From positions 1 through 21,428 of IMG/VR virus record IMGVR_UViG_3300007735_000465: a stretch of 21,428 nt of DNA; one strand, given 5' to 3'. The DNA comes from a virus. Numbering within the stretch: the first letter of the stretch is position 1; every line of letters begins with the position of its first letter. The notes under the pieces are model-generated. The model was given only the letters and a program-made list of their open reading frames with translations, did no database searches and was not told where the DNA came from. Shown here in pieces: positions 975-18,854 of this stretch. A program made the position numbers and the translations under genes.

Positions 975-2000
975 CTAATCTAAACTATTATCTAAAGCTT
1001 TTTCAGCATCATCACTACGTAAAATTCTTTCAATTTCTTTCATTTCATCTATTGCCCATTGTTTTTGTGAAGATGTTAATTCATCATTAACGGCGTTTTC
1101 AATAAATGGAAAAAATTCTTCGTCTGGTAGTTCATATAGCTTTCCAAAAAATAATTCACGAACACGTGCATCTTCTACATCGCTTTCATTATATATTTTA
1201 GAGATAGCATCATATAAAAATTTACCAAAACGTAGATCGTTTGGTTCGTTAGATAATTTATCTACAGCATTTACAACAGCTTGATTTTTTTCTCTATCAG
1301 GACCAAATCCTTTAGTACCAACAATCTCATACAATCCTTTTACAATCTCGTGTACAAGCATTGGGAAACATAATGCGCGAGCTTTAATAACGAATTGTTC
1401 ATTTTCTTCATCATATTCCATTTCACTTTCACCACCTTGTGGTGTTTGTCCTGATGCTAATGCCGCTAATAACATTGCAATAGCATTTTCATCATCATAG
1501 ATACCAAATGCTAATTTTAATATTTCATTGTATTTTTCTACTAAAGCTGGGTTGATAGAGTCTAAGTATTCTTTAAATAGCATAAATCCAAAAGCACCTC
1601 TAATTGAGGCACCTTGTGTTATACCATTAATAATACGACGTTTTGCTTGTAGTTTTTCAGGATCATCTTCACCAAATTCAGGTGTTGTTGGGTCTTGTGG
1701 AGGTGGTGGTTGTTGTAAACTAAAATCATCTCCTATTTTAGCGTCAATTCTAATATTAGCATAATCAATGATCGGATAAGCATCAGTCACCATTTGTGCT
1801 GCTACCATCTCTAATTCATCACGATATCCTTCTTCAGCATCAATAATTTCATCTAATAATGCTTTAGAACGTACCATTGTTTGCATCAATGACTTATTAC
1901 CAAGCATTGAGCGTAATGATTCGCCTGATTTACCTTTTAAGGAAGCCATTGTTTTGGGTGAGAATATTTTTTCGTATTCTACTTCTAATAAATTTGCCAT
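975..2000 (-). CDS. Conserved phage protein, possible head or virion component (341 aa)
   Basis: This acidic, mostly alpha-helical protein of 341 residues has a Pro-rich linker at about residues 95-112 (QQPPPPQDPTTPEF) separating an N-terminal helical domain from a larger C-terminal one. The section around residues 120-150 (KRRIINGITQGASIRGAFGF) and a KARALCFPMLVHEIVKGLY stretch look strongly conserved in type. I recall similar unnamed proteins in T4-like phages of aquatic bacteria but no function. The N-terminus MANLLEVEYEKIF has an L-L-E tripeptide at residues 4-6 but is too short to be a convincing capsid-targeting leader. The start overlaps the stop of the upstream gene (TAATG). A structural role is inferred from context only. 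Confidence 0.75.
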   Translation of the reverse strand: MANLLEVEYEKIFSPKTMASLKGKSGESLRSMLGNKSLMQTMVRSKALLDEIIDAEEGYRDELEMVAAQMVTDAYPIIDYANIRIDAKIGDDFSLQQPPPPQDPTTPEFGEDDPEKLQAKRRIINGITQGASIRGAFGFMLFKEYLDSINPALVEKYNEILKLAFGIYDDENAIAMLLAALASGQTPQGGESEMEYDEENEQFVIKARALCFPMLVHEIVKGLYEIVGTKGFGPDREKNQAVVNAVDKLSNEPNDLRFGKFLYDAISKIYNESDVEDARVRELFFGKLYELPDEEFFPFIENAVNDELTSSQKQWAIDEMKEIERILRSDDAEKALDNSLD

Positions 2001-2359
2001 TATTTTTGAGATCTAAAGCGTTTAATAATTTTAATTAAATCGTTAGCTTCCTTTACAGTTGCCTTTGTTCCAGCTTTTGCTGGCATCTTTTTAGGTATAG
2101 CATCTTTATCTTTTCCTGGGTTAAAACTTGGTTTTGCAGGTGGTTTTGTACCAGGATGTACTACTGGACCTGGTTTAGAAGGAGCATTTTCGTATAGTTC
2201 TAAATCTTCTATTGCCTTCATGTCTACAGGTTTACCTTGTTTTCCATCCTCATATCCTTTCATATATGCTGCTCGAGCTGGAGACATGTAAAGACCACCT
2301 TCATTTAATTCTTGTTTGATGATGCGGCTTATAGCTTCGCGTAATTCTTGTTTAGTCAT
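2000..2359 (-). CDS. Leader-bearing putative internal virion protein (119 aa)
   Basis: The first 20 residues form an amphipathic helix ending L18-N19-E20 followed by G21-G22, a close match to the (L/I)-x-E|(G/A/S) site cut by T4 gp21-type prohead proteases. After that comes a short motif (YMSPARAAYMKGYEDGKQGK), then a Pro/Lys-rich low-complexity stretch (about residues 58-95) and a basic C-terminal helix ending KRFRSQK. A small, basic, flexible body behind a cleavable leader fits a packaged DNA-associated internal protein (inference). There is no enzymatic motif. The start is preceded by a long A/T tract rather than a Shine-Dalgarno. Confidence 0.75.
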   Translation of the reverse strand: MTKQELREAISRIIKQELNEGGLYMSPARAAYMKGYEDGKQGKPVDMKAIEDLELYENAPSKPGPVVHPGTKPPAKPSFNPGKDKDAIPKKMPAKAGTKATVKEANDLIKIIKRFRSQK

Positions 2360-2377
2360 TTTATTATTTTTTATTTT

Positions 2378-3058
2378 TTATTTTGCCCACATCATATAGT
2401 TAGATTCTACTCTTCTAATATTTTCCGGTGTTGGATCTAGGTCCAGGATGCTTATTGGTTTAAATCCTTGTTTTAAAGCACCATCAATTCCTAATTTCCA
2501 TATTGCTATTGTATATAAACGATAAGCTTTAATTACAGTTTGAACTTTTTCAACATCTTTGTTTCTTCCTTCTTTATCGTATATTGATCTAACCCAAAAT
2601 GAAGGATTGACTATTTTATATTCTTCTAAGACTTTTTTACTAAATTCAATATTATCCATGTCTTTGCTACCAGAATATCCTTTAGATTCCATCCACTTAA
2701 CAAAATTATTCCATTGAGCCATTTGTTGAACAGATATCCCAGATTCATTAACTTTTTGTAATGCTTCATTACCTTCATAGCCAAGATTTGTTACTCTTCC
2801 GCTATTAAGATCTTTTAAAAAGGCTGTTGGGAATTGAAATTGTGATGTAAAGAAACCATTAATACCATCTACGTCAGTACCAGTACGAGTATCACTAACT
2901 GTTATAGCGGGTTTATCTGTTGGAATCTTAGATTGTGCTTTAGCTCCACCAAAAATACTAGAAGCAGCCATAGCTGCTCCCAATGCGATGTCTTTTGCAC
3001 CGACTTCTTCAAGTTGTTCTTGTTGGATTTGTTCTACAAGAGGCATTAGTTTAATCAT
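2378..3058 (-). CDS. Leader-bearing protein of unknown function (226 aa)
   Basis: The protein opens MIKLMPLVEQIQQEQLEE, a helix with possible cleavage positions after L-V-E (residue 9) or L-E-E (residue 18). A hydrophobic Ala/Gly stretch at about residues 24-40 (ALGAAMAASSIFGG) could be a membrane-active segment. The rest is soluble and mixed, with several Trp/Tyr-rich helices and a final ESNYMMWAK. No known domain is recognised. The start overlaps the FAD oxidoreductase stop (ATGA), and the bases just before it are ATATTTATT plus three, shared with other starts nearby. A packaged protein with a membrane-interacting segment is possible but unproven. Confidence 0.7.
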   Translation of the reverse strand: MIKLMPLVEQIQQEQLEEVGAKDIALGAAMAASSIFGGAKAQSKIPTDKPAITVSDTRTGTDVDGINGFFTSQFQFPTAFLKDLNSGRVTNLGYEGNEALQKVNESGISVQQMAQWNNFVKWMESKGYSGSKDMDNIEFSKKVLEEYKIVNPSFWVRSIYDKEGRNKDVEKVQTVIKAYRLYTIAIWKLGIDGALKQGFKPISILDLDPTPENIRRVESNYMMWAK

Positions 3059-4362
3059 GCCAATAAATATTCGGCAACATAAATTCCATGCGCCCCTGAT
3101 ACAGTAATACCACGAGCACTTAAGGCATCACCAACAAAATGTACGTTTGGATATTCAGTTAATGCTAGATTAGTATAATCTACTAATGGTTCTGGTGATA
3201 GATATTTTACTTCAGGAATATACATACCCCAATCATCGCCAAAATTGAATACTTTATTCATACCATCAATAAAATCATTAATATATTTAAAATATCCGCC
3301 GAATATTTCTTCAACTTTAGTTAAACCTATCCAACTAATTTTAGATGATGATACAGTTGTACCCTCAGATGTTAGTCCTGGTTCACGTGTCATATTAGGT
3401 GAGAAATATAATCCTGTATTATTAATCTGTAGTTTTTGTACTACATCTCTAGACCATTTAAATGGATCTTCAATACCTTTAATTTCCATCAATATACCAA
3501 AATTGGTCATATCGTTTCGGAATTGTTCACCCTTTTTCGCATGGCCGTTGTACGTGATATCGCCATAAGTTTCCTCCACGGCCACGTAAGCGGCATTGTT
3601 ATTAGTACAAAAGCTACGTAGAGAAACATTGTCAAACTTCTGATATAATTTGAAGTCATATGATATGTCTATTAATTTTTGAAAATATTTTTGTGGTGCT
3701 TCAAATCGAACACCTATTTGAACTGACTTAGGTTCAGTTGGTAGTTTATAATCGTCGGATAGTTTTTGTGCAAAGTCAATACCTGATTTACCTACTGCAA
3801 ATATAAGTTCATCATATATTATTTTGTCAGTAAAACCTTTATTTATTCTACACCATAAAGCGTTATATTTAAAGAATATATCAGTTACTTCAGCATTCCA
3901 TAAAAACTTAACACCCTTATCTAACAAATATTGGTACCATGCTTTAGCAATCTCGTGTAAGTAGTTACTACCAATGTGCCATACAGGAAACAAACGTAAT
4001 CCAAAATATGGTTTAATAAAGTCTGGTTCAGCTACTGGATCAGAACAGAATATTTCTTCTGGTTTAGGGTGAAAGCGTCTAAAGTTACTAATAACTTGAT
4101 CCATTAATTCCATTGCTTTTTCTTCACCACAATACTTAGCTAATTGACCACCAATTGCTGTATGGTATGTGAGTTTGCCATCGCTCCACCCTCCACTTCC
4201 TAACATGCCAGTCATAACTTCCTCTGGTTTACGATTATGAGGATCGTTTCCCTTATCGATTATTGTTATCAACTCGCCTGGGTATCCGTTATCGACAAGT
4301 TTAGTAGCAAAGTTAATACCTGCTACTCCCGCTCCAATTACTACAATTTTTTGTTGTTTCAT
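3055..4362 (-). CDS. FAD/NAD(P)-dependent oxidoreductase
   Basis: This full-length flavoprotein of 435 residues begins MKQQKIVVIGAGVAGINFAT. G10-A-G12-V-A-G15 is the Rossmann dinucleotide-binding GxGxxG. A central block (about residues 185-195, DELIFAVGKSG) resembles the second FAD/NAD motif, and the C-terminal NVHFVGDALSARGITVSGAHG is the typical final FAD-binding motif with an Asp contacting ribityl. The overall plan resembles uncharacterised FAD-dependent dehydrogenases of the COG2509 type. The substrate is unknown. Such a gene is unusual among phage structural genes and is probably an auxiliary metabolic gene (inference). A homing endonuclease gene lies immediately upstream, one base from its ATG. 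The next gene starts inside its stop codon. Confidence 0.85.
   Translation of the reverse strand: MKQQKIVVIGAGVAGINFATKLVDNGYPGELITIIDKGNDPHNRKPEEVMTGMLGSGGWSDGKLTYHTAIGGQLAKYCGEEKAMELMDQVISNFRRFHPKPEEIFCSDPVAEPDFIKPYFGLRLFPVWHIGSNYLHEIAKAWYQYLLDKGVKFLWNAEVTDIFFKYNALWCRINKGFTDKIIYDELIFAVGKSGIDFAQKLSDDYKLPTEPKSVQIGVRFEAPQKYFQKLIDISYDFKLYQKFDNVSLRSFCTNNNAAYVAVEETYGDITYNGHAKKGEQFRNDMTNFGILMEIKGIEDPFKWSRDVVQKLQINNTGLYFSPNMTREPGLTSEGTTVSSSKISWIGLTKVEEIFGGYFKYINDFIDGMNKVFNFGDDWGMYIPEVKYLSPEPLVDYTNLALTEYPNVHFVGDALSARGITVSGAHGIYVAEYLLA
3059..3070 (-). promoter_or_regulatory. ATATTTATT pre-start motif
   Basis: On the minus strand ATATTTATT (3070-3062) is followed by three bases and then the ATG at 3058. 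The same nine bases at the same spacing precede the starts at 5008 and 5395. Here it lies inside the end of the oxidoreductase gene (encoding EYLL), so coincidence is possible. Confidence 0.35.
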
Positions 4363-4363
4363 A

Positions 4364-5155: not shown

Positions 5156-5395
5156 TTATTCAAATTGTTTTAAAAAGTCCATTAAATTTTTTTTATCTTC
5201 ATCTTTTAATATACCTTGTACACCTTTATATGAATAAACAATTTTATTTAGTTTCTTATCTAAATAGAATCGTAAATCGCTTGGAGCATCTCCTCCAATA
5301 CTAACTCCCCTTCCCCACTCATAATCAAATGTAGATTCATTAATCACACCTGCTAATTCTTGCATTCTTTTAATTTCGTTGGATGACTGTTTCAT
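5156..5395 (-). CDS. Small leader-bearing protein (79 aa)
   Basis: Chosen start 5395 gives MKQSSNEIKRMQELAGVINE followed by STF. The segment ends I18-N19-E20|S21, an ideal gp21-type prohead protease site. RMQ-(x)-LAG-(I/V)-I is an N-terminal pattern I recall from many marine phage proteins. The remaining 59 residues form a small beta-rich domain (FYLDKKLNKIVYSYKGVQGI) with a short C-terminal helix (DEDKKNLMDFLKQF). An upstream in-frame start at 5425 would add ten residues before the leader, but 5395 is preferred because it has the ATATTTATT motif three bases upstream. The function of the mature domain is unknown. Confidence 0.7.
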   Translation of the reverse strand: MKQSSNEIKRMQELAGVINESTFDYEWGRGVSIGGDAPSDLRFYLDKKLNKIVYSYKGVQGILKDEDKKNLMDFLKQFE

Positions 5396-5757: not shown

Positions 5758-6918
5758 TATGTTATTATAATCTACTTCAGCACTACTACCTTTTAATTTA
5801 TTATCATCATATAATGCTCCTTTACTAAATACCCTAAATTCAATACCATATGCTTGTCCAATATGATTTGAGAAAGCAAATACTGGTTCATCATTAGTAC
5901 CTATTATATCATCTACATTAGTGTATATTGTACTACAGTTGATTGTTAATACATTATTATTAAATGTATAATTAGTAAAGCGTTCAAAATCTTCTTTAAC
6001 AACTATTGTTTTTGGATTATTTTCTTTACCAAATATTATACTATCATTATCTGCTTCAGGTATATTTGTTACTACTACTTTAGATAATATTTGATTAGTT
6101 GATGGGTTATATAGTTTGTATTTATTTTTAGCTCCTTGTATTGGTTGTAAACCTATATCTTTTAATTGTCCATTTAATGCTTTATTAATAAAATTTTTAA
6201 ATAAATCAGCAAATCTTGTTTTTGAACTTTCCCATCTTATTGCATTTTTCTTTTTAAGAGAGATATTAGCTGCTATTTTGTTATCATTATTAATTAATTG
6301 AGCATCTGCTTTAGCATATTCTGTTGCTTCTGTTTTAGAACTATCTACACATTCTATTATATTGTCAAACTGTAGATTTTTAGTAGCACTTTTTAGTATA
6401 ACTGTAATAGGATTAATAGTACCATCTTCATTTTTTGATATATGACTATTAATTAATGTAAAAAATGCGGATTCATTTATTTTACCTGATGATTCATTAC
6501 CTTGACCTTTTGCAAATTTAACGTATATTATTACTTTATTTTTAAACAATAAACGCCCTACAGATGAACCTTTACCAATAGATCCTTGATCAAACTGAAA
6601 GTCTGAATTTATTTTTTGCAAATCAGACATTAATTCTGTTCTAGAGAATTTAAATTTGTCTGGGATTAGAATAGAAAATGATGATTGACTTTTTGGTTTA
6701 AAGTTACTATCATCAAATTTATATTGATCTTTTATAAATTGAATAGCCTCATCAGCTAAAGGAGACATGTTAGCTTCGAAAAACATATCTAAATTATTAT
6801 TAGATTCTTTATCTAACATTTCACGTAAAATCATAACTTTATCTTCGTTATTCAAATCAACGATTCCATCGTGGCAAAGATATGACCACTCTAATAATAT
6901 TTTATCTATAACATTCAT
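5755..6918 (-). CDS. Leader-bearing conserved phage protein, possible nuclease-like fold (387 aa)
   Basis: The N-terminus MNVIDKILLEWSYLCHDGIV gives a potential cleavage site L8-L9-E10, and the stretch up to residue 35 (DLNNEDKVMILREML) is a helical module that I recall at the front of other aquatic phage proteins. The main domain includes GSSVGRLLF (119-125), YVKFAKGQGNESSGKINES (132-150) with a second I-N-E|S site at 147-150, and KADAQL...NISLKKKNAIRWE (203-230). The last could be the D...(x)-x-K core of a PD-(D/E)XK nuclease, with D205 and K222/K223 as candidates, but this is a weak guess. Codon use is very AT-rich. It ends in TAG inside the structured element. Confidence 0.7.
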   Translation of the reverse strand: MNVIDKILLEWSYLCHDGIVDLNNEDKVMILREMLDKESNNNLDMFFEANMSPLADEAIQFIKDQYKFDDSNFKPKSQSSFSILIPDKFKFSRTELMSDLQKINSDFQFDQGSIGKGSSVGRLLFKNKVIIYVKFAKGQGNESSGKINESAFFTLINSHISKNEDGTINPITVILKSATKNLQFDNIIECVDSSKTEATEYAKADAQLINNDNKIAANISLKKKNAIRWESSKTRFADLFKNFINKALNGQLKDIGLQPIQGAKNKYKLYNPSTNQILSKVVVTNIPEADNDSIIFGKENNPKTIVVKEDFERFTNYTFNNNVLTINCSTIYTNVDDIIGTNDEPVFAFSNHIGQAYGIEFRVFSKGALYDDNKLKGSSAEVDYNNI

Positions 6919-6919: not shown

Positions 6920-7465
6920 TTATGCTTCTGCTGGTGGAGTTTCTTCTTCTGCTGGGGGAGGTGTTTCTGCTCCTGCTTCAGGTGCTGTAGTTTCAGGACC
7001 TGCTGCTGCTAAATCAGGACCTAATTCAGCTCCTGATGCTGCTGGAGATTCTGATGGTGGTGTTTCGGCTCCACCTTCTGCTCCTTCTTTAGGTGCGTAA
7101 TTTAATTCTAATAAATCAGCTATGCCTTGTGAAGCACGTTCTAATTCACCTATATTAATTGGATTGTATCTTCTACCTGCTACTTTAACTTGAAAATTAC
7201 CTTTACCAAGATATTTAATACTAAAGTCTTGACCATTAGTTAGATCAACTTTAAATGTAGTTGGTTTAGGAGCAACAATATTAATACCATTAACGTAACG
7301 ACCAAAAGCTGGAGACATTAAGTCTTCCATTAATTTTTTTAGTCCAGGGAAGCGATATACCATATACATCGCCTTCTCTGCTTTTCGCTGTTGTTCTTCT
7401 TGCTCTTTAAGAGCTTTTTTAACAGCTACCTTAATGTATTTTTCTAATATTAGTTGTTTATTCAT
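6920..7465 (-). CDS. Conserved phage protein with Pro/Ala/Glu-rich tail (181 aa)
   Basis: The N-terminal helix MNKQLILEKYIKVAVKKALK ends A-L-K-E at residue 21, a possible prohead protease site. Residues 34-125 form a compact beta domain with a striking conserved look (MYRFPGLKKLMEDLMSPAFG-like opening, then KPTTFKVDL, KYLGKGNFQVKVAGRRY, NIGELERASQGIADLLEL). The last 55 residues are a Pro, Ala, Glu, Gly and Thr tail that should be disordered and acidic. I recall the core as a widespread unnamed family in marine T4-like phages. The leader, a small folded core and a disordered tail are consistent with a head-internal or head-associated protein. Its start overlaps the stop of the next upstream gene. 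Confidence 0.75.
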   Translation of the reverse strand: MNKQLILEKYIKVAVKKALKEQEEQQRKAEKAMYMVYRFPGLKKLMEDLMSPAFGRYVNGINIVAPKPTTFKVDLTNGQDFSIKYLGKGNFQVKVAGRRYNPINIGELERASQGIADLLELNYAPKEGAEGGAETPPSESPAASGAELGPDLAAAGPETTAPEAGAETPPPAEEETPPAEA

Positions 7466-7790
7466 TATCGTTTAGTTCGTGGAAGCCTTGAGCCGCTTGA
7501 TCAATATAGTTTTCTGCATTTGTAATATGGTCTTGAATCCAACCTGGTATATCACGTTCCATGTTACCTAATTTGCTCATTAGTTGTGATGATGATCTAA
7601 TTATTGATTTTAAACTAGCTTGAGCCATTGCTACTTCGTGATCATCACCTTCTTTGATATTTTTAGCTATTGCTTTACGACGATTAGCAAGATAGTCATC
7701 TGTTTTATCTACCTTACCATCATTGTTAATATCCTCATCTTCTTTTCCTACTGGGTCTAGTTTTTCTAATATATCAATTAACTTTATCAT
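7458..7790 (-). CDS. Leader-bearing protein with EF-hand-like calcium loop (110 aa)
   Basis: The start is MIKLIDILEK, with I-L-E at residues 7-9 as a possible cleavage site. Residues 19-31 (DEDINNDGKVDKTDD) contain a D-x-N-x-D-G-x-V-D-x-x-D loop, the dockerin/EF-hand calcium-binding pattern, followed by YLANRRKAIAKNIK. The second half is a long helical region (SIIRSSSQLMSKLGNMERDI, then PGWIQDHITNAENYIDQAAQ) typical of small helical-bundle phage proteins. Calcium binding is inferred from the loop only. Neighbours are a Dps-like protein gene upstream, overlapping its start, and the 181-residue gene downstream. Confidence 0.75.
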   Translation of the reverse strand: MIKLIDILEKLDPVGKEDEDINNDGKVDKTDDYLANRRKAIAKNIKEGDDHEVAMAQASLKSIIRSSSQLMSKLGNMERDIPGWIQDHITNAENYIDQAAQGFHELNDNE

Positions 7791-8169: not shown

Positions 8170-8730
8170 TTATTTCTTTTTAGTAGCTAATTTAGTAGCT
8201 GTTGCGTACATTTTACTTTTTTCTTCTTTAGATTTACCAAAACTACCTGATTTTTTCATACCTTTTACGATATCTTCTTTTTTATCTTTTTGAGCAGATG
8301 TCATTTTTTTCTTTTCATCTACCATTTTCTTTTGTCCACCTTCAGGAACAAGACCCATCATTTCTTTGATTTTATTTTTCTCATCAGAAATTTTAGTTTC
8401 TAGTTCTTTAATCTTTTCTTCAATTTCTTTTTCTAAATCAGCACCACGTTCTTTAATAGCCTCTAATTCTTTAGCAAAATTAGCTAAATCAGCAAATTCA
8501 ACCTCAGTTGATGCTGTTTTTTCAGCAAATTTAGCAGCTTGTAATTCATCACGATATTGCTTAAGAGCAGCTAATTCTTTTTTAAGATCAACTAATTTGC
8601 CAGAGCTTTTTGGAGCTTTTTCTTCTTTTTTAATAGATTTTTTAGGCTCTTTTTCTACTTTTTTTTCTTTAGTTTCTTTTGCTTCGTTTATTAAACTGCG
8701 CACAAATAGGCGTAATGCGAATTGATTCAT
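8170..8730 (-). CDS. Lys/Glu-rich coiled-coil internal protein with leader (186 aa)
   Basis: The protein begins MNQFALRLFVRSLINE followed by AKE; I14-N15-E16|A17 is a close match to the T4 prohead protease consensus. The mature part is extremely charged. Residues 17-45 are a K/E/P run, about 46-125 are a heptad-like coiled coil (LKKELAALKQYRDEL, LEKEIEEKIKELETKI), and the C-terminus is Lys-rich with KMYATATKLATKKK. This composition resembles T4 core or internal head proteins such as the scaffold and IP proteins (comparison by composition only). It has no enzymatic motif. The upstream leader contains an ATATTTATA box 18 bases before the ATG. Confidence 0.75.
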   Translation of the reverse strand: MNQFALRLFVRSLINEAKETKEKKVEKEPKKSIKKEEKAPKSSGKLVDLKKELAALKQYRDELQAAKFAEKTASTEVEFADLANFAKELEAIKERGADLEKEIEEKIKELETKISDEKNKIKEMMGLVPEGGQKKMVDEKKKMTSAQKDKKEDIVKGMKKSGSFGKSKEEKSKMYATATKLATKKK

Positions 8731-8755: not shown

Positions 8756-11416
8756 TTATTGATTTTTGGTTTCGGCTATGTGTTTTCTTAACATTTCTTT
8801 TACTTCATCCAAATGTTGTGGATTATTAGCAATATATTCACGTATCATATAGTTACGTACTTCAGCTAATCCACGACGTTGTAATACTGATAATAGTTCA
8901 GATGGTGAATTTAATGGTACCATTACATTACCGTTCTCATTATCTAGTAACACGTAATTTCTATTACCTGGTTGGATATTAATAGATGCTATTATGCGTT
9001 GATTTGCTAATCTAATGAAATATATTTTACTTTCATTTACTCCTATTACTCGACCTACTCTACCAGCATTACCTAATTGATTATTACGACGTGCTGCGCC
9101 TCTATCACCATTTGGATTAATACGAACAGCTGTTGTTGAATTAAGACGTCTATAATCATTTATTGGGAGACGGGAAAATGCTATTTCTAAACCGGTTTCA
9201 TCCATTACTTCAGCTACATTTATATCACCACCTCCTGCTGCAAGAGCTGCTGCACGTGGTTGTCCACCACCTGCTGGCCTACCTCTTCTAGTTGCACCTG
9301 CTACTGGAGCTTGTGCTCCTGGAGCTGTAGGTGTAGCTTCATCTGGTGTAGCGCCTGTTAATTGACGAGCCATAGCAGAAGGTATATTTGCTTTAACCAA
9401 TTTACCTGAATCTGATAATTTAAGAGATTCACGTGGATTAGCTTTATTTACAACATAATATATACCATTTGCTCCTATAGCTATTGCATATCTATCTGTT
9501 GGAGATAATGGTGGTTGAGCTCTAAACCATGCTTTTTTATTATCAAGACTAGTGTATGATGATCTAAACCATTGTGCTAGTCTACTTCCATCATAAACTA
9601 TATTTTCATTTCTTAAATAGGTAAAATAAGCTCTCCATGCTCCTTCATCCATTTGATTATTAGAATCTCTTTCTCTCCAATCATTTCCTCTCCATCCATA
9701 ATCTAATCCAGTATAAAAATTATATAATTCATTAGGAATACCACTTCCCATTTGTCTTGAAAAGAAAGTACGACTACTTTCTCCATCAGGTATAAGAAGT
9801 ACTTGTTGTCCCCCTAAATTACCAGAAGTTATTACTCTTTGGTTATATGGAGTAGATTTTAAAATAGATATAAATGCATCTTTATCAACTGTTGGTGGTA
9901 TATTAGAATAAGAATCAGCTGAGTTTTTAACTATGTTAACAACACCTTGTTGGAATGATGTATTGTCTTTTTCATCTTTTAATACTGCTTGTACTTCTTC
10001 ATCATTAAATGGTACTTTAGTTATCTTACCATCTTGAATTTTATATGATGAGAATGAATTAGCATCAACTAATATTTCACCATCTTCTACTTTTTTAACT
10101 ATAATAGCTGAATTTTCTTCTGATTTAGCTGTTTCAATAACTTTATCAATAAATGCTTTATCTACAATACCGTCAGTAGCTAATTTAAGTAAACTATTAA
10201 ATGGTAATTTATCTAATTCAGGATAATCAAGTAAGTATTTTGATGTACGTTGATTTAATTTAATATTTGGGTAGTCATCTTCTGCTGTATATAAACCTAT
10301 AGATATTTCATCTCCAAATTTTAATCTAACAATAGTATTACCATCTTTAGTAACATATAGTCTTTCATTAGATGGTATATTCCACTTATTTAATATTACT
10401 AATAATTTTTTAACATCAAATGGGAAAGTATCTAATGTAAGATATTTTAAATCAATTGGTTGCTGTATATTAGCTGTAATTGATTTTCTATCTTGATTAC
10501 TAAATTTATCTAGATTAGATAATAGGTAAGCATTGTCAATGATACCAGGAGTAATAGCAATAAATTCTGCTATTTGTGGATATTGAGGTAAATATTTTTC
10601 AACAAATTCTTTATTAGTAATATCACTAAATAAAGTTTTGTCTTTTCTAACAACCAAATATTGTTTTTTAACATTAAATGGCAATTTAATCCATTCTCTA
10701 ACACTAATAGTATCTTTTTTATATTTTTGAGCTACTTTTTCTTGATTAGATAATGGAATATAACGTAATATACCTCTAATATTTGGTATATCATTTAACC
10801 AAGGTACTTCAGATATTAATTTACTGAAAGACATTGGAGATGATTCGTATGGACTATTCTGTCTATTAGTATAGACATACTTTTTATTTTCATCATCTAC
10901 ATCCCTAACTTGTATAGCAACAAAACTTAATTTATCACTATCTGATAAGTTAGAGTTTTTAGCTAAATAAAATGTTGGATAACCTTTAGCAGCATCATAG
11001 CGATAATTACCAAATGATCCTCTAGTAATACACCATTTTTCACCTCTACCATATGTAATACAGTTATTTTCTTTAGAACCATTCCATACTGTAATGCCAC
11101 CATCTTGATATACTACATCGGGTGTTTGATCTTCTTCATCATCTGGGGCTTCAGCACCTACTGATGATGTAACTAGTTTTATTAGTTTAGATAAAGAGTA
11201 TTTACGTAAATCTTTTTCTTGTATTTTAGGAGAATTTTTGATAGCATCAAAACGTTGAATGTATGTTTTTAATGTATCATCACTGATATTGATATTTAAA
11301 TCATCAGCTTCTTCTCTAAATTGAGCCATTAAACGCTTTAATTCACCCTCAGAATATTCATTCAAAGGGAAAATATTATGTACTACGTGTAATATGAATT
11401 TATCTATTGCTCTCAT
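8756..11416 (-). CDS. Giant leader-bearing protein with KWCI domain (886 aa)
   Basis: This is the largest gene here. Residues 1-20 (MRAIDKFILHVVHNIFPLNE) form an amphipathic leader ending L-N-E. A domain near residues 100-175 has an N-N-C-I-T-Y-G-x-G-E-K-W-C-I core (KWCI at 127-130), then YRYDAAKGYPTFYLA. A similar W-C-x...FY pattern recurs in many large-phage proteins of unknown role. Residues 200-680 hold repetitive hydrophobic/polar segments with several roughly 60-residue units resembling each other. A Pro/Ala/Gly/Arg linker spans about 687-731, and a final beta domain plus a helical tail (HLDEVKEMLRKHI) follow. A packaged virion protein is inferred. No catalytic centre is seen. Confidence 0.75.
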   Translation of the reverse strand: MRAIDKFILHVVHNIFPLNEYSEGELKRLMAQFREEADDLNINISDDTLKTYIQRFDAIKNSPKIQEKDLRKYSLSKLIKLVTSSVGAEAPDDEEDQTPDVVYQDGGITVWNGSKENNCITYGRGEKWCITRGSFGNYRYDAAKGYPTFYLAKNSNLSDSDKLSFVAIQVRDVDDENKKYVYTNRQNSPYESSPMSFSKLISEVPWLNDIPNIRGILRYIPLSNQEKVAQKYKKDTISVREWIKLPFNVKKQYLVVRKDKTLFSDITNKEFVEKYLPQYPQIAEFIAITPGIIDNAYLLSNLDKFSNQDRKSITANIQQPIDLKYLTLDTFPFDVKKLLVILNKWNIPSNERLYVTKDGNTIVRLKFGDEISIGLYTAEDDYPNIKLNQRTSKYLLDYPELDKLPFNSLLKLATDGIVDKAFIDKVIETAKSEENSAIIVKKVEDGEILVDANSFSSYKIQDGKITKVPFNDEEVQAVLKDEKDNTSFQQGVVNIVKNSADSYSNIPPTVDKDAFISILKSTPYNQRVITSGNLGGQQVLLIPDGESSRTFFSRQMGSGIPNELYNFYTGLDYGWRGNDWRERDSNNQMDEGAWRAYFTYLRNENIVYDGSRLAQWFRSSYTSLDNKKAWFRAQPPLSPTDRYAIAIGANGIYYVVNKANPRESLKLSDSGKLVKANIPSAMARQLTGATPDEATPTAPGAQAPVAGATRRGRPAGGGQPRAAALAAGGGDINVAEVMDETGLEIAFSRLPINDYRRLNSTTAVRINPNGDRGAARRNNQLGNAGRVGRVIGVNESKIYFIRLANQRIIASINIQPGNRNYVLLDNENGNVMVPLNSPSELLSVLQRRGLAEVRNYMIREYIANNPQHLDEVKEMLRKHIAETKNQ

Positions 11417-12066
11417 TGTATTGGAGGTAAATTTAGTGCTTTTAATCTAGTAGACCATACATTTAAAATGTCTTGTCTATCTTTTTTATTTAATTTTACT
11501 TTATTAAAGTAATCGTTAATTACATCTTTAAATGGTGTACGTGTTTTTTTAGCTTTTAAATACATACCTTGTAACATAGCATCCACCTCTTTTTCTAATT
11601 TAAAGTAATCAGCTTTTGGTGCTAACTTCATGTTAATTAGATTACGCAATATTTCATCGTCACTCATTTCTTTAGAGGGAATAACATTTATACCTTGCTG
11701 TGTAAAATGTTCTAATTCATGTCTAATAACATCAGTTAAATCAAAATATATATCTTCCCATTTTTGTGGTAAATCTCTTGGATCAACCTGAAATCTGATT
11801 TCAAGGTATGGAGGGTCTGCTAATTGATCAACTCCACCATCTACAATATATCTTTGTGATTTTGTTGCTTTAACTCTTAATACTGCATTTAAATCAAATT
11901 CAAATGAACGACCTTTAGCATCAGTTAATTCATAATCATTTTCAAATTCTAAATCACCTTGCTCGTCCATATATTGATCTTTCCATTCTCTCATGATGTC
12001 AGTGACTATGTTTCTAGTCATAGAATCATAAGCACCTTCTTTCAATATATCGATTAATTTAATCAT
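11413..12066 (-). CDS. Leader-bearing HExxH zinc metalloprotease-like protein (217 aa)
   Basis: The first ten residues MIKLIDILKE, followed by GA, are a model capsid-targeting leader with L-K-E|G. Residues 113-124 (VIRHELEHFTQQ) contain H116-E117-x-x-H120, the zinc and general-base motif of gluzincin/metzincin peptidases. A downstream E160 in KLEKEVDAMLQG is a plausible third ligand. The N-terminal half is beta-rich. The likely activity is peptide hydrolysis, with the target unknown. It could act in head maturation or be injected to cut a host protein (inference). Start and stop both overlap neighbours (ATGA), placing it in one tightly coupled unit. Confidence 0.78.
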   Translation of the reverse strand: MIKLIDILKEGAYDSMTRNIVTDIMREWKDQYMDEQGDLEFENDYELTDAKGRSFEFDLNAVLRVKATKSQRYIVDGGVDQLADPPYLEIRFQVDPRDLPQKWEDIYFDLTDVIRHELEHFTQQGINVIPSKEMSDDEILRNLINMKLAPKADYFKLEKEVDAMLQGMYLKAKKTRTPFKDVINDYFNKVKLNKKDRQDILNVWSTRLKALNLPPIQ

Positions 12067-12956
12067 TTAGTTTTACCCCATTTTTTACCTTTACCTGGTT
12101 GTTTACATGCTGACACTGTTGGGCGACATGAAGGGTATTTTGCGCGTTTTTCACCTTTTTGGCGGCCACAAGGTTTACATTTAGTTTTACCATCTACTTC
12201 GCGACATGTATTACAATCTACCCAACCACCTGTTTTACCAGGAGCGCCTTTACGAGCAAACCATGTACGTAATGTTTCTTTTTGTTTTTCAGTTAATATT
12301 TCGTTTAACCAAGGAGCATTTAAACCAATATATACATTTGGTTGAATAAAACCTTCAGGATACATTTTAAATGTTTGAGTAGTTCTATGCCAACCTTCTC
12401 CTAATTCGTATTTACCATCTTTAGTTTTAAATAAAATAATTGGTTCTTTGGATATACCTTGACTTTTTAATAAATTTTGTTGTGTTTTATGTCTTTCAAC
12501 ATCCTTACCTACATCTTGTCTAATTTCACCTCCAATTCTTGATTTTAATTCTTTTTGAGTTTTATCACTAAAAATATCCATTGTTATAGGAAAATTTATC
12601 TTAGTCTCCCATTTTAAATCTTTAAGTTGGGTATCAATCCAATCCTGGATGCCTTCAGCTGTATTAATATTATCATCTTTTTTAATCATCTTATAAATCC
12701 AATCCTTTATAACATAATCAGGAAAATTTGGAAGTTGTTGTTTTAAATAACCAAGAAGACCTTGTCTTAATTCATTTAATTCAAACAGATTTTCTTCTTC
12801 CTTTAATCCTTTCCATATTTTACCTTTACGGCAACGTACAATAGCACCTGATTTATAGGCAGATGGTTTGTCGTATTTGCGATCAGCAATACGCTTACAA
12901 CGGTCTGCTTTTTTCTCAAGCATCATTTCAAATAATATATCTTGTAAACGTATCAT
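12063..12956 (-). CDS. Multidomain leader protein: basic cassette, ParB-like core, DUF5872-like Cys tail (297 aa)
   Basis: Leader MIRLQDILFE, with L-F-E at residues 8-10. A basic cassette follows at about residues 18-52 (DRCKRIADRKYDKPSAYKSG, then RCRKGKIWKG), which I recall as a repeated module in marine phage proteins. L60-N61-E62 is a second possible cleavage site. The core contains ILFKTKDGKYELGEGWHRT (174-192), resembling the G-G-x-H-R box of ParB/Srx-like nucleotide-binding folds. Residues 244-297 are a Cys-rich basic tail (GGWVDCNTCREVDGK, CKPCGRQKGEKRAKYP, CRPTVSACKQPGKG), matching what I know as DUF5872. Nucleic-acid binding and packaging are inferred. Confidence 0.75.
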   Translation of the reverse strand: MIRLQDILFEMMLEKKADRCKRIADRKYDKPSAYKSGAIVRCRKGKIWKGLKEEENLFELNELRQGLLGYLKQQLPNFPDYVIKDWIYKMIKKDDNINTAEGIQDWIDTQLKDLKWETKINFPITMDIFSDKTQKELKSRIGGEIRQDVGKDVERHKTQQNLLKSQGISKEPIILFKTKDGKYELGEGWHRTTQTFKMYPEGFIQPNVYIGLNAPWLNEILTEKQKETLRTWFARKGAPGKTGGWVDCNTCREVDGKTKCKPCGRQKGEKRAKYPSCRPTVSACKQPGKGKKWGKTK

Positions 12957-13468: not shown

Positions 13469-14152
13469 TTACCATGCTCTGCAAGACCAATAATTTGCTT
13501 TCCAACGTGGTCCTGGGTTATCACAGTTATGTCTTTTACGATATGCTGCTCTTCTTTTTGGATTTTTTACTTTAATATGCATACGTTTACCTTTAGCTGA
13601 TTTGCCACCAAATCCAAAGTTAACTTTTACAACTTTACCTTTGTTATTTTTAACGTATACTTTAAATTTTTTGATATCACCTTGCATTGGTTTACCTAAT
13701 TGTACCTTACGACCACGATATTCAGCTTCATATACACAAGGACATTCTGCTTCAGCTAAGAATGAATTATATTCATTCATAAATGTAATAAAATCTTTTA
13801 TTTCTTCAGGATTATTTTCATCAACATCATATTCGTCTATTTCTTCTTCTTTCATTGGCTTATTTTTCCAATCAGACATATTTCCAAGAGGACCTTCTTC
13901 GCTATCTGAGTTATGTGGTTCATTTTCACCAATGAAGAAAGCTTCATCCATTCCTACTTCATCTTTTAATTCTTGAAATTCTTCAATTGATGCATCTAAT
14001 ACATAATCTTTTAAATCTTCAAATGAAGGAAATTGTAAAAAAGGATATTGCTGTTTTTCAGCATATGATAAAAATTCAGGAACACCTACTGATTTAGCAC
14101 TTAGTTCACTAATTGCTTCCTTAATAATTTCTTTTAATTTATTTAGTTTCAT
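13469..14152 (-). CDS. Leader-bearing protein with conserved basic Cys/Trp C-terminal module (227 aa)
   Basis: Leader MKLNKLKEIIKE, with I10-K11-E12|A13, a good prohead protease site. Residues 30-130 are acidic and helical. The last 65 residues are basic: VYVKNNKGKVVKVNFGFGGK, then KNPKRRAAYRKRHNCDNPGP and KANYWSCRAW at the very end. I recall this RRxxYRxRHNCDNPGPxxKAxYWSCxxW ending from many marine T4-like cyanophage and pelagiphage proteins, without a known function. Two Cys plus His/Trp could bind metal. The acidic region and basic module separated by a flexible stretch fit a DNA-associated internal head protein. The start overlaps the upstream gene end. Confidence 0.75.
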   Translation of the reverse strand: MKLNKLKEIIKEAISELSAKSVGVPEFLSYAEKQQYPFLQFPSFEDLKDYVLDASIEEFQELKDEVGMDEAFFIGENEPHNSDSEEGPLGNMSDWKNKPMKEEEIDEYDVDENNPEEIKDFITFMNEYNSFLAEAECPCVYEAEYRGRKVQLGKPMQGDIKKFKVYVKNNKGKVVKVNFGFGGKSAKGKRMHIKVKNPKRRAAYRKRHNCDNPGPRWKANYWSCRAW

Positions 14153-14399
14153 CTTCTTGTTTTTTAGGTTCGAACCAATTTGAGCACCATTTTGATGGAT
14201 CTTTTATTTGATTACCTTCGTTATCAACTAATTCATCAGTACCCATGTATTCTTGATATTGTTTGTTTCGACACATATGCTTATCATCTTTCATGTAGTA
14301 ATAATTACAAACGTGACAACCAAAGCCTATTGGAGAAAACATGTAAGGAGGATATTCTTCCCCCTCTTTATGCTCTATTAAATCTAATAATCGTATCAT
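14139..14399 (-). CDS. Leader-bearing four-cysteine protein, possible metal or Fe-S binder (86 aa)
   Basis: Start 14399 yields MIRLLDLIEH (L-I-E at 7-9); it was chosen over the in-frame M at 14408 because it produces the leader shared with other genes here. Cysteines 28, 31, 43 and 72 follow a C-x2-C-x11-C-x28-C pattern, with FGCHVCNYYY at the front and DPSKWCSNWFEPK at the end. The spacing is loosely like high-potential iron-sulfur proteins or a zinc knuckle, but the match is not exact. The protein is 86 residues and soluble. The ligand and function are unknown. Confidence 0.7.
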   Translation of the reverse strand: MIRLLDLIEHKEGEEYPPYMFSPIGFGCHVCNYYYMKDDKHMCRNKQYQEYMGTDELVDNEGNQIKDPSKWCSNWFEPKKQEDETK

Positions 14400-15017: not shown

Positions 15018-15050
15018 CGTGTATTTTTAGATAAATGTTACCTATAAATA

Positions 15051-15632
15051 TTAGTCTTTTATAGCATCCTTGAGTTTTTGTATGTATTCCTGTATATCTT
15101 TTACAAATTGATTGTCTAGACTTTTACCTTTCCATTCTTCAATATCACCCGCTTCTGTAACGTATTGTTCGCCAGATTGAGCCATGAGTAGTTCTAGTAA
15201 TACATTTTCCATTTCTTTAATGTGATATATAACACCCTGTCTAATCATGTTTTGTTCATATTCTTTATATTCGCCTTTAACTTTTAGTTTAGTTTCATAA
15301 TCAAATACACAATCTGAGCATTTCTGGTGTATTTTAAACATATACTTATCAATATGTCCTTTATTCATTGGTTTATTGCAGTTAGGACATGTGATAGGTG
15401 TGAATATTTGTTTCTTAATAGCATCAAAACGTGTTACAGTTTGTTTGATTCCGTTTTTTATAGTCCATTTTTTACCGCGCTCTTCCCAAACGTCACCCTC
15501 CTTATATTCAACGTAGTCTGCTTTGTAACCAACCTGTACTCCGGTTTTATCGCCCGCTTTCTTGCTAATAATATTACGCATACGTTGTACGTCGCGTGTT
15601 TTAAATTCCTTTTTAAGTAAATTGTCGCTCAT
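15051..15632 (-). CDS. Zinc-ribbon conserved phage protein (193 aa)
   Basis: Residues 1-75 are basic and helical/beta (RDVQRMRNIISKKAGDKTGV, GDVWEERGKKWTIKNGIKQT). The middle holds a CPNC pair near residues 82-85 and a CSDC pair near 104-107, a two-knuckle zinc ribbon with DKYMFKIHQKCSDC between. The C-terminal half is helical (YKEYEQNMIRQGVIYHIKEM). I recall this family from T4-like phages of marine bacteria with no assigned role. A function in transcription or virion assembly would be guesswork. The start overlaps the stop of the HAD gene upstream (TAATG). Confidence 0.72.
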   Translation of the reverse strand: MSDNLLKKEFKTRDVQRMRNIISKKAGDKTGVQVGYKADYVEYKEGDVWEERGKKWTIKNGIKQTVTRFDAIKKQIFTPITCPNCNKPMNKGHIDKYMFKIHQKCSDCVFDYETKLKVKGEYKEYEQNMIRQGVIYHIKEMENVLLELLMAQSGEQYVTEAGDIEEWKGKSLDNQFVKDIQEYIQKLKDAIKD

Positions 15633-16099
15633 TATAACCCTAATTTTTTAAGTTGTGAAATTGTATTTGAAGCTGAGGTGTGGTGAATACCTTTACCTCC
15701 TTTAGCTTCCCATTCATCTATTGTTTCTTTTAAATCATCAATTAATATTCTATCAGGTTCAGCAAACATTTGCTTCATACCTCTAGAGGCAAAAAATAAT
15801 TTTCTATATTGATTATTAATATGCATTTTACACCATGCTTCTTTACCTACACGAGATGAAGGATCTTGAGAAGGTGCTGATAGAATAGCTGGTTTGTAAC
15901 GTTTAATATAACGCCATAATTCAGGACCATCAGGCATCCAGGGTAAATTGGCCCAAAATGAAGCACCAGCATCACTTATTGGTTGCCAAAAGGCAGCATC
16001 ACCTTTAACATATTGTTTTGTGTGAACACCTGTTAATTCATAATAACCTCTTTCAAAATCGACCAACACCCCATCCATATCAGAGTAAATTGTATACAT
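15632..16099 (-). CDS. HAD-family phosphatase, 5'(3')-deoxyribonucleotidase-like
   Basis: This 155-residue protein begins MYTIYSDMDGVLVDFERGYY. D7-x-D9-G-V-L-V-D is HAD motif I, with nucleophile Asp7 and acid/base Asp9. S74 in AILSAPS is motif II. K86 in RVGKEAW is a candidate motif III lysine, and I-L-I-D121-D122 is motif IV. The small helical cap between motifs I and II fits 5'(3')-nucleotidase or polynucleotide-phosphatase-type HAD enzymes, which dephosphorylate dNMPs or 5' ends. No leader is present, so the enzyme probably acts in the cytoplasm in nucleotide metabolism or RNA/DNA end processing. Confidence 0.85.
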   Translation of the reverse strand: MYTIYSDMDGVLVDFERGYYELTGVHTKQYVKGDAAFWQPISDAGASFWANLPWMPDGPELWRYIKRYKPAILSAPSQDPSSRVGKEAWCKMHINNQYRKLFFASRGMKQMFAEPDRILIDDLKETIDEWEAKGGKGIHHTSASNTISQLKKLGL

Positions 16100-16114
16100 A
16101 ACTTATATTTTATT

Positions 16115-16648
16115 TTATTTAGACTCTATTCTTTTTAATATTACAAATTTACCCGTATCTCCAGATTTAGTTGTAAAGTCTAATCCAACCTCTTTTCTTG
16201 AATAACCAGGAATTTTATTTGTTTTTGATAAATTATTATAAATATTCCAATATCCGCTTTTATCTAAACTAGATAATCCTATATATTTTGGTTTTTCTGT
16301 TTCAACAAAGTCTAATATAATTTTATACATTGTTGATAATATTTTTATATAATTTTCTTTAGCATTTCCTGTTGGTTCATTTGATGATTTAGTATTATGT
16401 TTTTCGTCAAATTGTATATTATAAAAAGACCCATTATCTCTATAATAATTAGGTAAAGGTTGGATTGAATAAAGATATTCAATATCTCCTACTTTAAATT
16501 CACCATCCAATAAATTACCATTAATTTCAACCGCATTTTCAGGATTAAGACTTATTTCATTTATTTTTAATTCATATAATTGAGATGATAACCTATTACT
16601 TAATGTAATAGGAGTATCAAATTTTAATATATCAATTAATTTTATCAT
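16115..16648 (-). CDS. Unknown protein with MIKLIDIL leader but no matching cleavage Glu (177 aa)
   Basis: The N-terminus MIKLIDILKFDTPI is the shared leader, except that Phe replaces the Glu found at position 10 in the 217-residue protein. A later I-N-E-I at about residue 30 could be a substitute. The body is soluble. Toward the C-terminus YIGLSSLDKSGYWNIYNNLS, then IPGYSRKEVG, resembles the end of small phage acetyltransferase-like (GNAT) proteins, but the acetyl-CoA loop (R/Q-x-x-G-x-G/A) is not evident, so this is a weak suggestion. The start overlaps the stop of the three-domain gene upstream (TAATG). Confidence 0.65.
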   Translation of the reverse strand: MIKLIDILKFDTPITLSNRLSSQLYELKINEISLNPENAVEINGNLLDGEFKVGDIEYLYSIQPLPNYYRDNGSFYNIQFDEKHNTKSSNEPTGNAKENYIKILSTMYKIILDFVETEKPKYIGLSSLDKSGYWNIYNNLSKTNKIPGYSRKEVGLDFTTKSGDTGKFVILKRIESK

Positions 16649-18102
16649 TATTGATATATTTCTTCGTTTTGTTCGCCGAATTTTCTTAATAATACACCTG
16701 CTTGAGCATTTGCTTCATTTTCAATTTCACTACCTGTTTCACCACTAGTTGGATCTAAACGTCCATCCTCAGCTTGCTTACGATGTACTAATTCATGAGC
16801 TAATGTACGTAATAAATCGGCCATGTTACGATTTTTAACATATACCCAAATTTTATCATCGTTTTGATTGAATGTACCAAATGTACGACGAGATTTTGCC
16901 TTATCATTATTATTTGATAAAGTAATTCCTGAGGGTGGTTTTTGTATTCCTAATTCTTTAATAGCAAAACCAACAAATTTCTTTAATAATTTTTTATCAT
17001 TATTATCTTCAATACCTTCATTTAAAGAACTAGGTAGTGTTTTAGTTTGTAGATTAAGTGTTCCTACTAATGCTGTTGGTATTACACCTAATGATCTATA
17101 AATAGATAATATAACTTCACCACCTACTAAATAATATTTACCTTGTTGATATTGTAATATAAGTGGTAATGGTATATCTTCTTTTTTCTTAATAGCGTCA
17201 ATATATGGTTTAGGATTAATACCTGTCTTTAGAGCATGTGAAATAGCATCATCTAATGATTTCATATTGTAAGACTTAGAATTTTCTAGCTCACTCCACA
17301 TGTCATCATTTAATACCATTTCATTTCCACCATTAAAAGCATATTCCATATCTTCAATAGGAATATTAAATACAGCAGCTGCTTTCTCTATTTTAGCACG
17401 ATTTTGTGTTATATAATCTTGATAAGCATCATCATCAAAATTAAGTGGTGGTGATTCTTGTAGTGGTTGTTCTTCACCTTTTGGTGGTGTTGTTTCGGCT
17501 GGTGGTGTTTCTGCTGGTGTTTCAGCTGGAGGAGTTTCAGCAGGTGGAGTTTCCTCTGGTTTCTCTTCAGGTTTAGTGTTTAATGCTTGTAAAAATTGAT
17601 CTACTGACACTCCATCAGGAAGATATTTTGCAATTTCTTCTTCATTCTTTTGAGCTAAAGCCATACGTAAATTAGTTGCGCTAACACCTTCAATAGCACC
17701 AGCATCAAATACTTTTACGTTTGGGTATTTTTCAATACTTTTATAGCGATCCATTTCACCTTTACCAAACGCTACAATAAAATTAGTATCAGGATTATTT
17801 TTAACTACGCCATATACTTCTTTAACGGGACTATCGTCTGCTGCTACGCGTACTTCAACTGAGCCATTAAATTTAGGCTTATATAAATTCCACACAGCAA
17901 TGCTTTCATCAGCACTAACACCTTCACGCATTTTAGGTGATACAAGTACTACTACTTGATCTGCTGTTTTTAGTAATTTTTCAACTACATCAAAATGACC
18001 TTTATGAGGTGGTTTAAAAGCACCTGGGAATAGAGCAATTGTTTGTTCTGGTTGGTCACCTGCTTCTAGTATTATATTGGCTAAGTATTCTCCTAAATTC
18101 AT
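16648..18102 (-). CDS. Three-domain protein: nucleotidyltransferase, ParB-like, HExxH peptidase (484 aa)
   Basis: Leader MNLGEYLANIILE|AGDQ (I-L-E at 11-13). Residues 21-150 form a cytidylyltransferase-like domain: FPGAFKPPHKGHFD holds the H33-x-G-H36 nucleotide-binding motif and S141-ATNLR146 the C-terminal ISxTxxR-type motif, as in NMN, pantetheine-phosphate or glycerol-3-P transferases. A Pro/Glu/Thr linker (about 177-213) and L214-Q-E216|S217 lead to a middle domain. Its KYYLVGGEVILSIYRSLG (322-339) resembles ParB/Srx-like folds. L360-N-E362|G363 precedes a zinc-peptidase domain with H436-E-L-V-H440 and a downstream ENEAN Glu. The (L/I)-x-E sites at the joints suggest cutting into separate proteins by the prohead protease (inference). 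Confidence 0.8.
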   Translation of the reverse strand: MNLGEYLANIILEAGDQPEQTIALFPGAFKPPHKGHFDVVEKLLKTADQVVVLVSPKMREGVSADESIAVWNLYKPKFNGSVEVRVAADDSPVKEVYGVVKNNPDTNFIVAFGKGEMDRYKSIEKYPNVKVFDAGAIEGVSATNLRMALAQKNEEEIAKYLPDGVSVDQFLQALNTKPEEKPEETPPAETPPAETPAETPPAETTPPKGEEQPLQESPPLNFDDDAYQDYITQNRAKIEKAAAVFNIPIEDMEYAFNGGNEMVLNDDMWSELENSKSYNMKSLDDAISHALKTGINPKPYIDAIKKKEDIPLPLILQYQQGKYYLVGGEVILSIYRSLGVIPTALVGTLNLQTKTLPSSLNEGIEDNNDKKLLKKFVGFAIKELGIQKPPSGITLSNNNDKAKSRRTFGTFNQNDDKIWVYVKNRNMADLLRTLAHELVHRKQAEDGRLDPTSGETGSEIENEANAQAGVLLRKFGEQNEEIYQ

Positions 18103-18854
18103 TTTAAAAAGTCGTTTATTTTAGTTTTTGCATCTTCAATATCAGTAAAATCAGGGACCATTTTAAGTTGATTTGATATTTCCTGATTCATAGCATCTAT
18201 CTCTTGTCTTTTTTTAAGTAATTCCTCTGGTGAATATTGCTTACCACTACCTTTTACAGTTTGAAAAAATGTAGCTTTAGCATATGCCGGATCGTACTCT
18301 AATCTAGCTTCAGGATCATTATCAATCAAAATAAAATCATCACCAAAAATTCCTCTATACAATTCAACATTTTTATTTACATCTCTCCATGTACGTAATA
18401 CAATAGCTGGAGGTAATGCTCTATCTCTAGTAGCATTACGTTCTAATGATGTATAAGGTGAAACCCAAATCATTAACATTAATGTATCGTATCCTAATGA
18501 TTCTAAATCTGCTTTTTTCTTAAGTAATGGTTTACTAGCAGCACCAGTACCATCTATTACTATATTATTTTTAGCAGCAGATAGTTGTGCATATTTTTCT
18601 TTAGTAGCTTTTTGAGCTTGACCCATCATTTTAGCTGCTTGTGATAATTGATCTTGACTAAAGTCAGCAATTTTAGTACCTAATCCAGCAGTACGTAATA
18701 ATTCTTCATAGGTATCATCTACATTAATTACTGTTAAATTAGATGGAAGTAGTTGTTTAGTTACGAATGTTTTACCAGAGCCAGCAGGACCAGCTAAAAA
18801 TATAGCTTTTGATCGAGCTGATGCTTCTAATAATAGATCTAATAGTTTAATCAT
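18099..18854 (-). CDS. Leader-bearing P-loop kinase, zeta-toxin/PNKP-like (251 aa)
   Basis: Leader MIKLLDLLLE|AS (L8-L9-E10|A11) is followed at once by a P-loop: A-G22-P-A-G-S-G-K28-T29. The second Asp motif is NVDDTYEE (44-51), and NIVIDGTGAAS (97-107) fits Walker B or the substrate-binding strand of zeta-toxin or polynucleotide kinase-like enzymes. LERNATRDRALPP (137-149) supplies Arg residues for a lid. Zeta-type kinases phosphorylate UDP-GlcNAc and PNK-type kinases phosphorylate nucleic-acid 5' ends; the sequence does not decide. A leader on a kinase suggests packaging and delivery into the host (inference). ATATTTATT lies eight bases before its start. Confidence 0.8.
   Translation of the reverse strand: MIKLLDLLLEASARSKAIFLAGPAGSGKTFVTKQLLPSNLTVINVDDTYEELLRTAGLGTKIADFSQDQLSQAAKMMGQAQKATKEKYAQLSAAKNNIVIDGTGAASKPLLKKKADLESLGYDTLMLMIWVSPYTSLERNATRDRALPPAIVLRTWRDVNKNVELYRGIFGDDFILIDNDPEARLEYDPAYAKATFFQTVKGSGKQYSPEELLKKRQEIDAMNQEISNQLKMVPDFTDIEDAKTKINDFLK

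Follow-up and report, generated by a model that had tools for sequence, protein, structure and literature searches.

Why should some fifteen otherwise unrelated proteins, encoded close together in one virus fragment, begin with similar short leaders? The question is raised by the IMG/VR virus record IMGVR_UViG_3300007735_000465, of which a 21,428-base fragment (the window) was analyzed; its 32 predicted genes all lie on the minus strand. An earlier note had listed 15 starts whose leaders end in (L/I)-x-E and had likened them to the targeting sequences of bacteriophage T4 internal head proteins. All 15 starts are minus-strand open reading frames (ORFs) with the quoted N-termini, and 14 carry (L/I)-x-E within residues 9-21; at the remaining start, 16648, the leader is kept with Phe in place of Glu (MIKLIDILKF). 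With a probability of roughly 0.8, we take these leaders to be capsid-targeting sequences (CTS) of the T4 internal-protein type, serving as exchangeable address tags for a greatly enlarged set of cargo proteins, with gp21-type cleavage in the prohead and ejection of at least some of the cargo.

Since the record is only a 21 kb fragment, the search for a prohead protease and for further leaders that the earlier note had proposed was run on relatives. A DNA-level search of named phage records gave no match to the window. Its primase, however, is common to 69 viral contigs, and among named isolates the closest one found is Flavobacterium phage immuto_2-6A (immuto; primase identity 46%). Fourteen relatives were used for the protease and capsid search. 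A gp21-type (S77) prohead protease (PF03420) and a gp23-type major capsid protein (PF07068) were each found above the curated cut-off in 12 of them, the two relatives lacking both matches being short contigs. Gene order is kept in the relatives as primase, nuclease, leader block, terminase, portal, protease, scaffold and capsid. In their capsid protein an (L/V)-x-E pro-region is conserved, with the predicted cut site QLVTE/A (here and below, a slash marks the predicted cut), and in their protease an N-terminal LTLTE is conserved. Similar (L/I/V)-x-E sites stand near the N-termini of the scaffold, protease and capsid precursors.

The leader itself was evaluated with a rule taken untuned from the T4 internal proteins, namely hydrophobic residues at positions 4, 7 and 8 and Glu at position 10. 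Four of the 32 window genes obey it, against 0.06 expected from internal sequence (Poisson p 5e-7). Across eight relatives, 29 of 286 genes in the zone from primase to capsid do so versus 0.5 expected, a pooled count that is not independent in that orthologues recur across relatives; outside the zone the figure is 19 of 1436, mostly further MIKL-type genes. A pattern wider than this rule and stricter than the bare motif (hydrophobic at -6, -3 and -2 and Glu at 0, with Glu at residue 8-24) matches 11 of the 32 window genes versus 6-7% by chance, two of the 11 (the primase and the ORF starting at 5646) being probably spurious. When its Glu is placed at residue 10, this pattern is found in 10.6% of zone genes, 1.7% of genes outside and 0.26% of shuffles, an approximately 40-fold excess of zone over shuffled sequence. 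As a control, it recovers IPII, IPIII, Alt, gp24, gp67 and gp68 from T4. The T4 gene 61.1 (T4 record, locus L170 18969-19130, minus strand) also starts with a good match to the CTS rule, MKTFKEFIKE/D.

The loose (L/I)-x-E motif is present in 17 of the 32 window genes. Its background is 15% in windows taken from inside these proteins (binomial p 6e-7) and 21% in N-termini after shuffling, and in immuto 10 of 62 genes for replication, metabolism and tail have it (Fisher p 2.6e-4). It also matches the PD-(D/E)XK nuclease (19658) and the primase (20593), two of the 17 that are probably chance, and is therefore not specific and a weak criterion alone. In immuto, which with its own annotation served as the category control, T4-type leaders were found on none of 42 replication and metabolism genes and none of 20 tail, portal and terminase genes. 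An equal frequency of the leader on polymerase and cytoplasmic genes, which the earlier note had named as fatal to its proposal, was thus not observed. With the wider pattern, the immuto counts were 1 of 42, 1 of 20, 11 of 20 leader-block genes and 3 of 5 prohead-core genes.

Conservation within the leader points in the same direction. In the set of 156 proteins that start with MI[KRQ]L, Ile or Leu stands at residue 7 in 145, Leu at residue 8 in 127 and Glu at residue 10 in 116. These conserved residues coincide with the positions at which mutagenesis of T4 IPIII affected targeting (residues 4 and 7) and processing (residues 8 and 10) (PMC9026906).

Virion data are available from distant T4-like cyanophages. 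The S-CREM2 virion proteome was published with ORF coordinates (PMC10665884), and a T4-type leader stands on five of its genes, all five virion-detected, versus 0 of 147 undetected genes (p 0.001). The five encode a SAM hydrolase (MKDFDSFLEE), a kinase (MKRFDAFLTE), a cytidylyltransferase (MKNFSSFLTE) and the unknowns ORF13 (MKDLHSFLTE) and ORF136 (MQTFSMFFSE). The S-CREM2 paper makes no mention of targeting, propeptides or cleavage (PMC10665884). In addition, an NMNAT virion protein of S-SCSM1 begins with MKSFLQFLKE/A and its S-CRM01 orthologue with MKLFNQFFKE/A. The leader is neither required for virion presence nor alone proof of it. A separate observation concerns the virion-detected, Cas9-like gp12 of S-CREM2 (L175:7704-10313, minus strand), whose N-terminus reads ...RFASFMAE/AAVDQ and resembles a CTS shifted to residue 25.

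The leader also behaves as a module. The claim that the bodies behind it are unrelated was confirmed in the window and extends to the lineage, where the strict form MxKLxxhhxE precedes at least 36 unrelated body families in the fetched relatives; a pattern scan of IMG/VR with one narrow leader version returned at least 111 unique proteins in at least 45 families. At least four leader types occur in the lineage (MIKLxDILKE, MKKSxLxxIIKE, FDLKKFLxEN and RMQxLAGI), the RMQxLAG type on one to three genes per relative. Conversely, one body may carry different leaders or none. The DUF5872-type body of window gene 12063-12956 has at least four different leaders among relatives, and the NT5C-like nucleotidase, leaderless in the window and close relatives, bears MKKVMGNLADLLLE in immuto gp087 and MIKLLDILKE in contig L181. 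A protein with the motif GGNVF carries the leader in relative G010, and its leaderless form in immuto equals Met plus the sequence following the predicted cut in leader-bearing forms. Across relatives, the linker behind the leader Glu varies in length and the Glu stays fixed.

Single genes of the window follow the same pattern. The leader of 18099-18854 is kept in 18 of 18 orthologues, with a linker of variable length after the Glu, and relatives of 16648-18102 likewise combine an invariant leader Glu with a variable linker. Orthologues of 14139-14399 begin with MIRLIDILKE/H or MIKLIDMLKE/H, and those of 5755-6918 with MEVIDKILNE/W or MTVIDKILRE/W. In 8756-11416, I4, F7, I8, L18 and E20 are invariant across 12 orthologues.

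At the DNA level, 102 of 112 leaders are distinct and codon use is near the genome average at most positions, so it is mostly the protein that is constrained. An origin of the leaders by recent copying of a single DNA cassette is largely rejected on the same two grounds, Ile7 being the exception. The codon for Ile7 is ATA in 81 of 87 MIKL-type leaders versus 486 of 845 internal [DEN]-Ile-Leu contexts, and Asp6 is unbiased; perhaps this bias reflects a Leu(TTA)-to-Ile(ATA) exchange.

On the sequence side, the CTS reading thus draws on the leader itself, its fixed spacing, the many unrelated bodies, its gain or loss on a single body, the presence of protease and capsid genes in relatives, and enrichment beside head genes. 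The T4-type interpretation given in the earlier note is supported by the gp21-type protease and gp23-type capsid of relatives, the (L/V)-x-E capsid pro-region, and the restriction of S-CREM2 leaders to virion-detected proteins. For the lineage of the window, we infer packaging, targeting, cleavage, ejection and an effector role along the following lines. The tagged proteins would be synthesized late in infection, each in precursor form, and the prohead core would be bound by the tag (hydrophobic at about 4, 7 and 8 with Glu at about 10, or a longer version). Within the prohead, cleavage behind (L/I/V)-x-E by the gp21-type (S77) protease would release the bodies. These would remain with the DNA, and ejection would bring at least some of them into the next host, to serve there as enzymes acting early or as counter-defence proteins.

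Several points weigh against this reading. The window, being a 21 kb fragment, holds no prohead protease or capsid gene of its own. Start 16648 lacks the cleavage Glu, and the spacing is irregular at starts 7790 and 14399. False positives of the leader rules include the primase, a cyanophage RecA and a likely dCTP deaminase (MLNAAQIIDE). Pooled p-values are overstated because relatives share orthologues. In the 50 kb of S-SCSM1 examined, NMNAT is the only leader-bearing protein among seven non-tail virion proteins, and enrichment there is therefore not significant. Finally, the authors of the S-CREM2 study considered that some such enzymes could be co-purifying contaminants (PMC10665884).

The main rival explanation accepts packaging and processing but has the tagged proteins act inside the head, in core assembly, DNA condensation or head maturation, instead of being delivered as effectors. 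We consider it improbable, although it accommodates the similar sites on scaffold, protease and capsid precursors, the small and charged nature of several cargoes (8170-8730 and 6920-7465) and the function of T4 IPIII in head assembly (PMC9026906). Many bodies are enzyme-like and have no obvious head role (ADP-ribosyltransferase, GNAT, thioesterase, P-loop kinases, NMNAT), and cargo turnover between relatives is high, unlike that of morphogenetic genes. Less probable again, and in our judgment very unlikely, is that the leader is a docking helix for some other phage or host assembly (membrane, replication compartment or chaperone) unrelated to the head. It is short and probably an amphipathic helix, as many docking helices are, and structure models were uninformative on a partner; however, conservation of Glu 10 ahead of a variable linker, clustering of leader genes beside head genes, the match to mutagenised T4 CTS positions and the S-CREM2 virion data all argue against it. 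Chance, or a translation-start bias of an AT-rich genome rich in MIK and MKK starts, could explain a motif seen in 15-21% of background sequences and on primase and nuclease, but is already contradicted by leaderless replication, metabolism and tail genes of the same genomes, by the excess of Glu at residue 10 in the zone and by the diversity of leader DNA, and hardly deserves further consideration.

Under the CTS reading, what would be delivered? The enzyme-like cargo of the window comprises the zeta toxin-resembling P-loop kinase, the NMNAT-like protein with its HELVH motif and the HELEH protein, next to several unknowns (Table 1). Cargo in relatives and in wider IMG/VR includes ART-PolyVal (2e-10; 3e-6), GNAT (7e-11) and thioesterase (5e-10) domains, a weak PBECR3 match and kinase-like proteins. 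A Pfam search gave no match for several kinase-like and ART-like bodies that are convincing by eye, and since several cargo names fall below Pfam cut-offs they are tentative. A defence-system search gave no notable match. A 2H phosphoesterase with a MIKLIDILKE leader and two HxT motifs (L187:96-635, minus strand) has a sub-threshold match to Acb1 (PF23474, 3.7e-4) and is a candidate packaged enzyme against the cyclic-oligonucleotide-based antiphage signalling system (CBASS). AlphaFold2 models were uninformative both for 11413-12066 (predicted local distance difference test score 62, about 26 in the leader) and for 8756-11416 (score 75; predicted template modelling score 0.42), and Foldseek with these two models returned nothing at E 0.001.

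Two further observations concern cargo bodies. In L286:13212-13862 and L026:19694-20345 (both plus strand), a guanylate cyclase domain (1.6e-23) follows a leader and kinase-like N-terminus; this may be the end of a chimeric contig. In L116:13188-13946 (plus strand) and immuto gp080, a leader precedes DUF5661 with weak similarity to the T4 RegB endoribonuclease (0.0056, below cut-off).

Table 1. Leaders and neighboring landmarks of the window (a slash marks the predicted cut)
Feature	Position	Strand	Gene	Body and remarks
Leader MIKLLDLLLE/A	18825..18854	-	18099-18854	P-loop kinase, AAA_33/Zeta_toxin-like
Leader MNLGEYLANIILE/A	18064..18102	-	16648-18102	NMNAT/cytidylyltransferase-like, C-terminal HELVH motif
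Leader MIKLIDILKF, without cleavage Glu	16619..16648	-	16115-16648	Weak DUF6934
Leader MIRLLDLIE/H	14373..14399	-	14139-14399	Cysteine-rich small protein
Leader MKLNKLKEIIKE/A	14117..14152	-	13469-14152	phrog_7595 at C-terminus
Leader MIRLQDILFE/MMLE/K	12915..12956	-	12063-12956	DUF5872-like plus unknown part
Leader MIKLIDILKE/G	12037..12066	-	11413-12066	HELEH zinc-peptidase-like motif
Leader MRAIDKFILHVVHNIFPLNE/Y, ending LNE	11357..11416	-	8756-11416	886 amino acids, unknown
Leader MNQFALRLFVRSLINE/A	8683..8730	-	8170-8730	Charged, coiled-coil-like
Leader MIKLIDILE/K	7764..7790	-	7458-7790	Ca-loop DINNDGKVD
Leader MNKQLILEKYIKVAVKKALKE/Q	7403..7465	-	6920-7465	Similar leader in relatives
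Leader MNVIDKILLE/W	6889..6918	-	5755-6918	phrog_12709-like
Leader MKQSSNEIKRMQELAGVINE/S, RMQxLAG type	5336..5395	-	5156-5395	
Leader MIKLMPLVEQIQQEQLEE/V	3005..3058	-	2378-3058	Relative G002 has MIKLIPIVEEIQQKQLEE/G
Leader MTKQELREAISRIIKQELNE/G	2300..2359	-	2000-2359	
HAD/NT5C-like nucleotidase without leader	15632..16099	-		Leader on this body in immuto gp087 and contig L181
PD-(D/E)XK nuclease and DnaG-like primase	18873..20593	-		Leaderless landmarks at block edge; primase pattern match is probably chance

Two other genes were noted. A DUF5856/phrog_858 protein without leader lies inside the block at 7787-8167 (minus strand), and it shares its annotated product name with T4 rI.-1. A short ORF at 5422-5646 (minus strand) repeats the N-terminus (KKIVIVGAGVAGINAATKLV) of the FAD oxidoreductase at 3055-4362 (minus strand), fused to an unrelated tail, and is like a remnant of a partial duplication.

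If the CTS reading is right, one sequence feature would predict which unknown phage proteins ride in the particle and enter at the start of infection, and dozens of hypothetical proteins in aquatic T4-like phages would become testable host-takeover or counter-defence factors. It would also provide one explanation for the kinases, NMNAT and SAM hydrolase in cyanophage virion proteomes, for which the authors left open whether they were packaged or contaminating. Because Flavobacterium phage immuto_2-6A exists as an isolate, the prediction is directly checkable. To a broader proposal we give even odds: the decapeptide might be an open loading port in a widespread aquatic lineage of the T4 superfamily, with probably Flavobacteria-like hosts, such that any protein gaining the tag would be packed. 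In that case, single-domain effectors would pass between relatives by the dozen (ADP-ribosyltransferases, kinases, nucleases, hydrolases, acetyltransferase and a possible anti-CBASS 2H phosphoesterase) and would enter the host together with the DNA, ahead of any phage gene expression.

Both tag and mechanism are known from T4, and what appears to be new is the size and variety of the cargo set. In the literature, with most subscription journals outside the search, we found no cargo set this large and no account of the leader in aquatic T4-like phages. The window lineage resembles T4 IPI-III and Alt, whose CTS is cut by gp21, in leader length, hydrophobic residues 4, 7 and 8, Glu 10 and the (L/I)-x-E site, in having an S77 protease and gp23 capsid (in relatives), and in placing one leader before unrelated bodies; the ADP-ribosyltransferase domains among the cargo of relatives recall Alt in particular. 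Common CTS leaders before divergent bodies are indeed described for T4 internal proteins, and reviewers have suggested the CTS for packaging varied proteins (PMC9026906). T4, however, has about four such proteins, as compared with about 14 candidates in 21 kb and, across this lineage, at least 36 body families and several types of leader. The cyanophages S-CREM2, S-SCSM1 and S-CRM01 share NMNAT-like cargo and T4-type leaders, with virion presence measured in the first two, but they are distant relatives and their leaders read MKxFxxFLTE instead of MIKLxDILKE.

Other delivery systems offer looser parallels. ART-PolyVal, weak PBECR3 and GNAT domains in relatives are reminiscent of the polyvalent proteins of phages and conjugative elements. 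Those proteins combine 2-15 domains per chain, whereas the tagged proteins are mostly short and show no more than one recognisable domain, each with its own tag; 16648-18102, with NMNAT and HELVH motif, is an exception. An N-terminal targeting sequence or propeptide on ejected head proteins is shared with P1 DarB and with the inner-body and ejection proteins of phiKZ and SPN3US. The signal of DarB, of which the first 30 residues are sufficient, operates in a phage without a separate scaffold. The SPN3US protease cuts after A-x-E and removes propeptides mostly of 111-254 residues, while the leaders of the window have 9-21 residues and end in (L/I)-x-E.

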